A DNA stretch of 37,675 nt from a virus. Location of the stretch: IMG/VR virus record IMGVR_UViG_3300031951_000524, positions 1 to 37,675 of that record; one strand, 5' to 3'. Under the pieces are notes generated by a model. The model was not told the DNA's origin, made no database searches, and saw nothing but the letters and a program-made list of their open reading frames with translations. Positions 11,197 through 37,675 of this stretch are shown here, one piece after another (positions within the stretch are counted from its first letter, which is position 1; each line of letters starts with the position of its first letter). Both the position numbers and the translations under genes were made by a program.

Positions 11197-13635
11197 GTGG
11201 AACCAAGCATCCAAGAACAGATTGATCTTGAGAAACGTATGGTGGCTTACGGCATAGGCCGTTATAAGAGCACTGTACAGAAGGCTCTGGAGAAAGGCCG
11301 TGGTGCAGACACCCAGTCTGCCCAGAAGTTGATGCAGGAGTTCGTATTGCCTGTTGCTACGGCCATCCGCGAATGGTGCGAGCACAAGTCTCCCGGCCCG
11401 AAGAAGAAGTACAATAAGCTACTGTCTGTTGTTGAGCCTGAGGTTGCTGCTTATCTCGGCCTCCGTGCTGTATTCGATCACTTCACTAACAACACACCAT
11501 TGGTCTCCCTCGGCTCTCGAATCGGTATGCTTATCGAGGATGAGGTTAAGTTCAGTAAGTTCCAAGAGAAGCACGGTGAGTATTACGATGCCATCATCCG
11601 TGACTTCAAGAAGAAAGGGACGACGAACTATCGCCACATGCACCGTGTATTGACGATGAAGGCCAAGCAACATGAAGTTGACTGGGTCGATTGGTCGAAT
11701 GAAGAACGTGCACAGGTTGGTGTAAAAGTCATCGACTTAATCATGCAGAGCACTGATCTGATCGAGATGAAGAAAGAGAAAGCCAAGGGTCGCAGACACC
11801 TGATGCAAGTCATCATTGTCCCGACTGAGAGCTGCCTCAAGTGGATGAAGGAGTTCGACTCCTACGCTCAACTGATGAACCCAGACAGATCGCCATGCAT
11901 CATACCACCAGATCCGTGGACTAGCGTTGACCAAGGCGGGTACTATACCCCTCAGCTTCGTCGCCGGACACCTCTGGTCAAGGTCAAGAACAAAGCTCAT
12001 CTTGAACTGTTCAACGATGGGAAGATGGACAAGGTCATGCAGTCGGTGAATATCCTACAGCAGACATCTTGGGAGATTAACAGGGAGGTCTTTGAGGTAT
12101 TGAAGACAGCTTGGGAACAGTCGTTACCGATTGGACTCCCACAGTCTGAACCTTATCCTCTCCCAGCCTCGCCAATACCTAAAGACACAAAGAAATCTGA
12201 CATGACTCCGCTACAGAAGGTTGCCTTCGACGAGTGGAAGTCAGAAGCTCGTGTCGTGTACACCATGAACAAAGAGCGTGTGTCTAAGTGCTTCCAAGTT
12301 ATCCGTGTACTGCGGATGGCCAAAGAGTTCATGGACTACAGTAAGTTCTGGTTCGTATACCAGTGCGACTTCCGTGGTCGTATATATGCTACGGTATCTG
12401 GTCTGTCGCCACAAGGCCCAGACTTTGCCAAAGGTCTCTTGCGCTTCTCAGAGGGGAAGCCGCTAACTGAGCGGGGACTGTATTGGCTGAAGATACATGG
12501 CGCTAACACATTCGGGAAGGATAAGATCTCATATGCTGAACGAGCTAAGTGGACAGAGGATAATGCTGAACTCATCCGAGCAATTGCTAGCGACCCGCTC
12601 ACCCATCGTGATGCGTGGGCGAATGCAGACAAGCCTTGGCAGTTCTTGGCATTTTGTTTCGAGTATGCGAGATTCTTACATCTCGGACTTGGTATGCTAT
12701 CGCATCTCCCTGTCGCTCTTGACGGAAGTTGTAACGGGCTGCAAAACTTCTCCGCTATGCTCCGTGACGAAGTTGGCGGTAGAGCGACTAACCTCACACC
12801 TTCAAAAGTCCCAGCAGACATATACTCCGAAGTGGCAAGAGTGTGTACCGAGAGGCTCCGGGGTTCTACAGACCCTCTGGCCGCTGTTTGGTTAAACTTC
12901 TGCGATGCCGAACACGGTGGTTTTTTGCCCCGTGGGCTTGCGAAACGACCCGTCATGACCCTACCCTACGGCTCGACCCAACAATCGTGCAGGGAGTACA
13001 TTTATAAATACATGCTGGAGGAAGCGCAGGAGTCCTTCCCCAAGGAGATCCGTTTCCGCTTATCAGTGTTCTTAACACCTATCCTATGGGCTTCCATTGG
13101 CGAGGTGGTTGTCGCTGCCCGTAAGGCTATGGACTGGATACAGAAATGTGCCGGGATCGTAGCCCGTGAAGATAATCCACTGGTCTGGCATACCCCGATA
13201 GGCTTCCCTGTGTATCAGGGTCGCAAGAAGGTTATCAGTCGCAGAGTTGATACCCAACTTGCTGGCCGCATACAGCTCCGACTGAACGTGGATTCAAACC
13301 AGATCGACGTACAGAAGCAGCGACTTGGTGCCAGTCCGAACTTCGTGCATAGCATGGATGCTTGCCATCTGATGCTCACGTTGACTTCTGCCTCAGCCAA
13401 GGGAGTAACCAGTTTCGCTTGCATACACGATGACTTTGGTACTCATGCCAATGACACCGATGCCATGCATACAGCGATCCGGGATGCCTTTGTTTCGATG
13501 TACGAGAACAGCGATCCTCTACTGAACTTCAAGACAGGCATTGAAAACTCTACGGGAATTGTACTCCCAAGCTTACCTCCAAAGGGTAGTCTAAACATCA
13601 CTGACATCCTCCGTTCACCTTACTTCTTTGGGTAA
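11197..13635 (+). CDS. T7-type single-subunit DNA-directed RNA polymerase
   Basis: An 812-residue RNA polymerase expected to transcribe the middle and late genes. Catalytic features: palm motif A as LDGSCNGLQ with Asp509, the KRPVMTLPYG helix with Lys583 and Tyr591 (T7 Lys631 and Tyr639), and CIHDDFG with Asp745 (T7 Asp812). DFRGRIYATV and the C-terminal VHSMDACHL are also typical. The region near residues 668-715 should hold the specificity loop that reads the promoter. The start is GTG, preceded by TAGGAGCGAGT. It sits after DNA metabolism and before structural genes (phiKMV-type placement), so its own synthesis probably depends on host RNA polymerase. The 24-base repeats starting right after this gene are its likely promoters. 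Confidence 0.97.
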   Translation: MEPSIQEQIDLEKRMVAYGIGRYKSTVQKALEKGRGADTQSAQKLMQEFVLPVATAIREWCEHKSPGPKKKYNKLLSVVEPEVAAYLGLRAVFDHFTNNTPLVSLGSRIGMLIEDEVKFSKFQEKHGEYYDAIIRDFKKKGTTNYRHMHRVLTMKAKQHEVDWVDWSNEERAQVGVKVIDLIMQSTDLIEMKKEKAKGRRHLMQVIIVPTESCLKWMKEFDSYAQLMNPDRSPCIIPPDPWTSVDQGGYYTPQLRRRTPLVKVKNKAHLELFNDGKMDKVMQSVNILQQTSWEINREVFEVLKTAWEQSLPIGLPQSEPYPLPASPIPKDTKKSDMTPLQKVAFDEWKSEARVVYTMNKERVSKCFQVIRVLRMAKEFMDYSKFWFVYQCDFRGRIYATVSGLSPQGPDFAKGLLRFSEGKPLTERGLYWLKIHGANTFGKDKISYAERAKWTEDNAELIRAIASDPLTHRDAWANADKPWQFLAFCFEYARFLHLGLGMLSHLPVALDGSCNGLQNFSAMLRDEVGGRATNLTPSKVPADIYSEVARVCTERLRGSTDPLAAVWLNFCDAEHGGFLPRGLAKRPVMTLPYGSTQQSCREYIYKYMLEEAQESFPKEIRFRLSVFLTPILWASIGEVVVAARKAMDWIQKCAGIVAREDNPLVWHTPIGFPVYQGRKKVISRRVDTQLAGRIQLRLNVDSNQIDVQKQRLGASPNFVHSMDACHLMLTLTSASAKGVTSFACIHDDFGTHANDTDAMHTAIRDAFVSMYENSDPLLNFKTGIENSTGIVLPSLPPKGSLNITDILRSPYFFG

Positions 13636-13656
13636 CTTCCTCCATACCTAGTAAGG
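13633..13656 (+). promoter_or_regulatory. Candidate phage RNA-polymerase promoter, copy 1
   Basis: A 24-base element (TAACTTCCTCC followed by ATACCTAGTAAGG) begins inside the last codons of RNA polymerase and ends before ATG 13671. The same 24 bases occur before the capsid gene, and a near copy occurs before the tail fibre gene. Long near-identical repeats in intergenic gaps of a T7-like phage are usually promoters of its own RNA polymerase. The transcription start is not known; T7-type polymerases start at G, so a GG near 13655 is a guess. Confidence 0.72.
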
Positions 13657-17363: not shown

Positions 17364-17387
17364 TAACTTCCTCCATACCTAGTAAGG
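17364..17387 (+). promoter_or_regulatory. Candidate phage RNA-polymerase promoter, copy 2
   Basis: This repeats all 24 bases of copy 1 (core CTCCATACCTAGTAAGG) in the 77-base gap between scaffold and capsid genes. T7 also has a strong late promoter in front of its capsid gene. The capsid ATG is 39 bases downstream with its own AAGGAGA site, and a strong terminator follows the capsid gene. High-level transcription of the capsid gene as a short unit is therefore likely. Confidence 0.75.
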
Positions 17388-28505: not shown

Positions 28506-28528
28506 TAACCTCCTCCATACCTAGTATA
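28506..28528 (+). promoter_or_regulatory. Candidate phage RNA-polymerase promoter, copy 3
   Basis: TAACCTCCTCCATACCTAGT followed by ATA matches copies 1 and 2 except for one C for T and the bases after CCTAGTA. It lies in the 65-base gap between the last core protein and the tail fibre gene, with ATG 28554 downstream. T7 also has a late promoter before its fibre gene 17. The bases just past the core differ from the other copies, so strength may differ. Confidence 0.72.
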
Positions 28529-28553
28529 CAAACATTTACGCTAAGGAGAAGAT

Positions 28554-36930: not shown

Positions 36931-36984
36931 CTGCTACACGGCTGGAGGCTCTGCTCGAAAGAGTACCCTCCAGTCCTCTCCGCC

Positions 36985-37055
36985 TGTACTGGCGTACCCT
37001 TGGAATAGCTCCTATGCCCTTACTAAGCATTCCACTCCGAGGGTACACCAGTGCA
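36985..37055 (+). promoter_or_regulatory. Long imperfect hairpin in non-coding right end
   Basis: The outer arms 36985-37000 and 37040-37055 form 16 positions with one mismatch and one G-T pair. Inside, TGGAAT (37001-37006) pairs with ATTCCA (37029-37034), with CTCCG bulged on the 3' side (37035-37039). No T-run follows. It could be a structured RNA, a processing site or a DNA feature for packaging. Confidence 0.6.
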
Positions 37056-37067
37056 GATGTACCGCCT

Positions 37068-37085
37068 TTGGCTACTAGGGTAGCT
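37068..37085 (+). repeat. Direct repeat, copy A (TTGGCTACTAGGGTAGCT)
   Basis: An 18-base word that recurs at 37280-37297 with one change (C to G at position 8). Both copies lie in the non-coding right end about 210 bases apart. The word is partly self-complementary (AGCT end and GGCTA start), so it could bind a protein or form small stems. No known phage element is recognised. Confidence 0.65.
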
Positions 37086-37279
37086 CCCTGTATCCAGATC
37101 CTGCTGTACGGGCAAGAAATCGGCCCTGCTATCGATTCTATAGAGCCTATCGAAAACGCATAGATACAGGCCAGATCATATCCCAGATACCCGAATGTTG
37201 AAAATGGGTCATAATTGTGTGAGGGTATTTAATACAATCCCCGCGTAGATTTCCCCCATAGGGCACCTGATTGCATGCC

Positions 37280-37297
37280 TTGGCTAGTAGGGTAGCT
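37280..37297 (+). repeat. Direct repeat, copy B (TTGGCTAGTAGGGTAGCT)
   Basis: The second copy of the 18-base word, with 17 of 18 bases the same as copy A. It is preceded by GCATGCC and followed by AGCATAGTATTAC. A weaker third echo, GCATGCTCTGGCTATC, lies near 37354. Confidence 0.65.
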
Positions 37298-37498
37298 AGC
37301 ATAGTATTACTACTGTTGTAGACCCTGTTTCTTGCCAAGTGTGCATGGGTGTGCATGCTCTGGCTATCTATCTTGTTTCATTATCCTATATCAACCTCAT
37401 GTATTAATCATTATTAACTATTCATTCAATACCAGTATGCTATCATTATACCTATTAGGTGTCTATATATTTATTTTCATATTATGCTATTATTTATC

Positions 37499-37526
37499 TT
37501 GACACCATAGATTATATCTCTATAAT
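37499..37526 (+). promoter_or_regulatory. Consensus sigma70 promoter (early promoter candidate)
   Basis: A perfect -35 TTGACA (37499-37504) and a perfect -10 TATAAT (37521-37526) are 16 bases apart in an AT-rich tract, reading rightward. No gene starts before the window ends, so it would drive genes beyond 37675, presumably the early genes read by host RNA polymerase, as with the T7 A1-A3 promoters. Confidence 0.8.
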
Positions 37527-37610
37527 GCTTGCCCTTTGTTATCTAGTTACGTTCTAGCGTAGCTATCACTATTTTATAAACTGATACCATACTCACCAGA
37601 TACCAATTGT

Positions 37611-37634
37611 TATACCTAATATGGAGGAGGTTAG
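37611..37634 (-). promoter_or_regulatory. Reversed copy of the phage promoter-like element
   Basis: Read on the minus strand, this is CTAACCTCCTCCATA, then TTAGG, then TATA. It matches copy 3 in 20 of 24 places, with the first 15 bases identical. It points leftward, against all genes in the window. The plus strand also shows ATACCTAATA close to the core ATACCTAGTA, so the site is partly two-sided. It may be a leftward promoter, a polymerase-binding site used for replication, or a genome-end signal. GGAGGAGG on the plus strand is not followed by a start codon at ribosome distance. Confidence 0.5.
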
Positions 37635-37675
37635 ATATTTATCACCTATAATCTATTGAATTATATGGGCTAATG

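Follow-up and report, generated by a model that had tools for sequence, protein, structure and literature searches.

A probable inverted terminal promoter, matched to the phage's own RNA polymerase, in a clade of T7-like viruses

We analysed a linear piece of virus DNA (the window), 37,675 nucleotides long, that starts just before a helicase gene. All of its genes run rightward and include those for a DNA polymerase, a T7-type RNA polymerase (positions 11197 to 13635, plus strand), the portal, the capsid, and the terminase. The plus strand has three forward copies of a phage promoter: one (copy 1, 13633 to 13656) follows the RNA polymerase gene, the next (copy 2, 17364 to 17387) precedes the gene for the major capsid protein, and the last (copy 3, 28506 to 28529) precedes the gene presumed to encode the tail fibre. 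Roughly 8 kb of early region is missing. In the near-complete 44.6-kb contig of a relative (G005), the terminase and helicase genes are separated first by gene-free DNA and then by early genes spanning about 8 kb. This gene order implies that the window stops inside the terminal/early region and not at a genome end. A first-pass annotation had described a promoter-like element at the right end of the genome; that placement needed correction, and in the mature genome, the last ~450 bases of the window would form the left end.

The element, TAACCTCCTCCATATTAGGTATAA, lies at positions 37610 to 37634 on the minus strand (37610 to 37633 as a promoter feature). The T of −17 is at 37633 and the predicted +1 G at 37616, with predicted transcription running leftward. 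Its 14-nt core, TAACCTCCTCCATA, is identical to that of copy 3 and one base off copies 1 and 2. Fourteen-mers with at most one mismatch to this core occur four times in the 37-kb window, against 0.01 expected, and no equally good match arose on either strand in 3,000 dinucleotide shuffles of the terminal region. The initial view that a promoter-like element sits on the opposite strand, with a likeness to copy 3 that chance would hardly give, is therefore confirmed for the exact 14-nt core. Just after the core, at positions −3 to +1, the reversed element is unlike copy 3, which brings the match over the full length to 19/24. The initiation part of the reversed copy differs from the forward copies both in the window and in the close relative G002. 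In both, positions −4 to −1 are AT-only (ATTA followed by GG in the window; ATAA followed by GA in G002, with G at +1), and an AT-rich −4 to −1 stretch with a purine start is a trait of T7-type promoters. As first described, the element points into gene-free DNA, with no leftward gene downstream of it. It was also correct that such phages normally keep their promoters on one strand, as is the case in relatives that share the gene order.

The ends of the mature genome were inferred by homology. Counted from the left end, TTCCCCCATAGGG begins at base 24 both in T7 and in Rhizobium phage Paso; for Paso, the ends are a PhageTerm prediction based on reads. In the window it starts at 37251, so that the mature left end would fall at about 37228, where the first bases also agree (TTTAATACA versus TCTAATACA). 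The terminal repeats of T7 (160) and T3 (231) end directly before ATCTGTT, the repeat of Paso (371) ends directly before ATCTATCTTGTT, and the annotated junction of K11 is at the same place. With ATCTATCTTGTT as the boundary, the same rule would give the window phage a direct terminal repeat of ~138 bp at 37228 to 37365 (plus strand). The tract between this repeat and the element (37366 to 37609), which is on the downstream side of the reversed promoter, is 72% A+T, and it is 69 to 73% in three relatives. It holds a perfect sigma-70 consensus, TTGACA-16-TATAAT (37499 to 37526, plus strand), probably a host early promoter, which faces right and converges with the reversed promoter ~0.1 kb further on. 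On the minus strand, where a leftward host promoter like A0 of T7 would be expected, only two sigma-70 sites lie between the repeat and the element, both 9/12 (37465 to 37437 and 37407 to 37380), a rate close to that of shuffled sequence.

Counted from the inferred left end, the reversed promoter lies at +383 to +406, which is the place of T7 phiOL. In T7, T3, and K11, phiOL is a phage promoter 0.35 to 0.5 kb from the left end, between the terminal repeat and the early genes (T7, 405; T3, 366 to 388; K11, 479 to 501), and the window element sits in just such a position. In contrast to phiOL it is on the opposite strand, and it is followed by a TATCNGTY motif that T7 and T3 phiOL lack. T7 phiOL has been proposed to pull the genome into the cell (PMC6171733). 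That role is impossible here because the promoter points at the entering end. Promoter A0 of T7 (224) and T3 (126 to 150) is likewise leftward and near the left end, but it is used by host RNA polymerase and lies nearer to or inside the terminal repeat.

Evidence on identity also comes from related, uncultured phages. The promoter sequence differs in each of five related contigs, and every one of the five phages has its own promoter sequence repeated, in reverse, in the terminal region. In the two nearest relatives (G001 and G002), the RNA polymerase is 87% identical to that of the window and the promoter is different, TAATTCACTTCGTACCTAGTAAGG. G002, whose contig reaches the terminal region, has the reversed form TAATTCACTTCATATAA at the matching place. 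G004 pairs forward TAATTCACTCCCTATTTAGTACAA with reversed TAATTCCCTCCCTATTTAGTAGGA, and G005 pairs forward TAATGTGACTCATACATAGTAGAT with reversed TAATCTGACTCATACATAGTAGAT. Across the window and these three phages, the reversed cores differ from their own phage's cores by 0, 1, 1, and 1 mismatches and from those of the other phages by 2 to 6, and none of 3,000 shuffles was as good in any of the four. The fifth case, G040, is a contig reached via a different gene. When it was searched for inverted repeats without guidance, the best match was a 21-nt exact pair, with the forward arm before the tail fibre region and the reversed arm 3 kb past the terminase. By homology-inferred left ends, the reversed promoters lie at +406 (window), +419 (G002), +376 (G004), +346 (G005), and about +499 (G040). 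Close relatives thus keep the reversed copy at the same place, a point on which the first-pass reading had depended.

The polymerases point the same way. When the window enzyme is aligned to solved structures of T7 RNA polymerase, its D685 takes the position of T7 N748, the residue that sets promoter specificity. The N748D change switches T7 polymerase to the preference of T3, with CC at −11/−10. The window promoters have CC at −11/−10, as in T3, with D at this position; G001/G002 have L/T with AC, and G005 has H with GA, so that the residue fits the promoter in four phages. The recognition core (−17 to −5) of the reversed copy is common to the phage's other promoters and fits its polymerase. 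Taken together, these comparisons make it almost certain that the phage's own RNA polymerase uses the element as a promoter, and we hold with high confidence to the fuller description of it as an inverted promoter of that T7-type polymerase at the terminal, phiOL position. That it is an inert leftover or a chance match seems very improbable. The drift of its initiation part in the window and G002 would suit such a relic, but a dead copy would not follow a changing polymerase specificity, and here five specificities are tracked at one place in five phages, with no shuffle as good.

The reversed orientation follows phylogeny. In a terminase tree, all five reversed cases fall in one clade (support 100/100), and one change of orientation is needed. 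Outside the clade, the terminal promoter is forward in 16 of 16 scorable relatives, 12 called by scan and four (G007, G008, G011, and G021) by eye from the sequence. Since both neighbouring groups are forward, the reversed orientation is probably the derived one. The contigs of another two clade members, L008 and L020, stop short of the terminal region. The survey covers only relatives found via the terminase, the polymerase, and two small genes. A nucleotide search with the right end of the window against cultured phages gave no match, a search for clade members via the last late gene returned only G002, and one via the RNA polymerase returned no contigs beyond those already known. Searches of the open-access literature turned up no case in which a T7-like genome carries a reversed phage promoter at its end. 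As a separate observation, clade members share a first early protein of ~160 aa (L163/L164/L165, position 5001), and the same protein occurs in many Pseudomonas, Acinetobacter, and Vibrio phages (584 records).

Downstream of the window promoter, at +31 to +38 of the predicted leftward transcript, lies TATCAGTT (37579 to 37586, minus strand). A TATCNGTY motif follows 20 of the 21 terminal promoters, 5/5 reversed and 15/16 forward. We scored it as [TC]ATC[TAG]GT[TCA] within 60 nt downstream in the direction of transcription, a pattern chosen after seeing these sequences and fitted in its exact form to the same set. The contrast with controls is nevertheless large: shuffled sequences gave a mean of 0.4 and a maximum of 4 in 300 rounds, and the opposite (upstream) flank gave 0/21. 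Within the clade, G004, G005, and G040 carry exactly ATCTGTTT, while the window and G002 carry ATCAGTTT. In our sequences, promoter and motif are inverted together.

For T7 polymerase, the class II pause/termination sequence is ATCTGTT, which occurs at the T7 concatemer junction (PMC11617373). TATCNGTY, in its variants TATC[T/A/G]GT[T/C/A], resembles it and also lies downstream of a promoter, with the difference that the T7 signal, which a T run follows on the non-template strand, is at the repeat boundary, while the clade motif directly follows the promoter and is a putative pause site. In phages of Rhizobium, Agrobacterium, Stappia, and Nostoc (for example Paso, RHEph02, and Atu_ph02), the terminal promoters share both the place and the downstream motif but are forward. 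At gene promoters the motif is found in 7 of 43, and six of these seven lie directly after the DNA polymerase gene. Nine relatives have such a second promoter-plus-motif module there: Paso (16754), RHEph02 (18048), Atu_ph02 (11870), SI01 (18423), G024 (38768), G026 (12136), NMeng1 (17783), Oiolarie (5338), and RHph_Y1_20 (16021). It is absent from the window clade, as checked in the window, G001, and G005.

We considered what a leftward transcript might do in its own right. Late leftward transcription could silence host-type early promoters in its path, and the perfect sigma-70 site between element and repeat, which faces the element, would be a fitting target, as would a similar host-type promoter at about +260 in G002. 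Such interference is possible in the window and G002, but it is not a shared function because in G004 and G005 the clear TTGACA promoters are found behind the reversed promoter and diverge from it; the forward modules of relatives would not oppose early promoters either. We consider it improbable overall and rejected early-promoter interference or antisense control as the shared function of the clade, whose host promoters lie on different sides. The first-pass annotation raised an antisense RNA; antisense control of a gene has no target common to the clade. The suggestion of a structured RNA in the same annotation fared no better. A conserved small noncoding RNA acting as RNA would account for UAUCNGUY in the first 40 to 50 nt of nearly all such transcripts; however, Rfam gave no match, the 21 transcripts show no shared fold, and their sequences are largely unrelated outside the motif. 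This reading seems slightly less probable still than interference. Hairpins after the motif that had looked promising by eye were rejected for want of a common fold.

An end-pointing promoter of this kind suggests a service to DNA replication or to the making of genome ends and not to gene switching. The annotation had named replication, packaging, or polymerase recruitment among its options; this is still the best class of explanation, and sequence does not separate them. We favour replication, and give about 55% to the whole explanation of an inverted terminal promoter with replication-origin-like action. Under this model, the phage polymerase would start at 37616 late in infection, run left, and pause at TATCAGTT, ~30 nt on, in AT-rich DNA. 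The phage helicase and DNA polymerase would adopt the short RNA of the paused complex as a primer, and the site would thereby act as a replication origin beside the terminal repeat. The gene-free leftward path, the motif ~30 nt from the start, and the 72% A+T fit short RNAs or a parked polymerase. In T7, a stalled transcription complex can be displaced by the helicase and DNA polymerase, for which its RNA then serves as primer (PMC5997990); this is why we favour an origin-like role. The T7 primary origin (phi1.1A and phi1.1B plus an AT-rich stretch) is likewise a promoter followed by AT-rich DNA and a proposed source of RNA primers, but it is internal and forward with no ATCTGTT downstream. 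Two findings count against an origin role. Downstream ATCTGTT is absent at the T7 origin promoters phi1.1A/B, phiOR, and phiOL, so T7 does not carry a link between motif and origin, and the A+T content on the two sides of the reversed promoters differs little (69.5 versus 66.8%). We regard the priming role of the leftward transcript, taken by itself, as plausible at somewhat less than even odds.

Processing of the genome end ranks behind this origin-like role, and we judge it unlikely. Here, a polymerase paused beside the terminal repeat would help terminase cut the concatemer, or help copy the repeat. The element is ~250 bp from the inferred repeat edge, its leftward transcript would traverse the repeat, and a pause-like motif is present; the polymerase-lysozyme complex of T7 makes contact with the packaging proteins and has a pause site at the concatemer junction (PMC3276506). 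However, the motif would halt most polymerase at least 200 bp short of the repeat, the same module follows the DNA polymerase gene far from the ends in nine relatives, and the forward versions in relatives head away from the repeat. Replication priming could also be extended to all of this group of T7-like phages, although we offer this tentatively and hold it doubtful. The promoter-plus-pause module (TATCNGTY 20 to 45 nt on) would then be the replication origin of the group, at the left end and, outside the clade, after the DNA polymerase gene. The window clade would have lost the internal copy and inverted the terminal one, and its leftward paused transcript would start replication.

The role of T7-like end promoters is still debated between genome entry, replication, and packaging. 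The clade offers a natural experiment, in which an end promoter and its motif were turned around and yet stayed matched to a changing polymerase. The inversion speaks against gene expression and genome entry here and leaves replication or end processing, and the motif opens the module to tests in cultured relatives, Rhizobium phage Paso among them.

Two further stretches near the element were noted. Directly behind the reversed promoter, TATAATCTATTGAATTATAT (37646 to 37665) is 20 bp identical between the window and G002, and the surrounding DNA has diverged. Left of the inferred mature end, a gene-free stretch (36931 to 37227) contains a strong palindrome near 36981 to 37057, ~170 to 250 bp from that end, in a place comparable to that at which T7 concatemers form hairpin ends. 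Long stretches of it are identical in G002; in other relatives the sequence of this region is unrelated, yet it is structured too.
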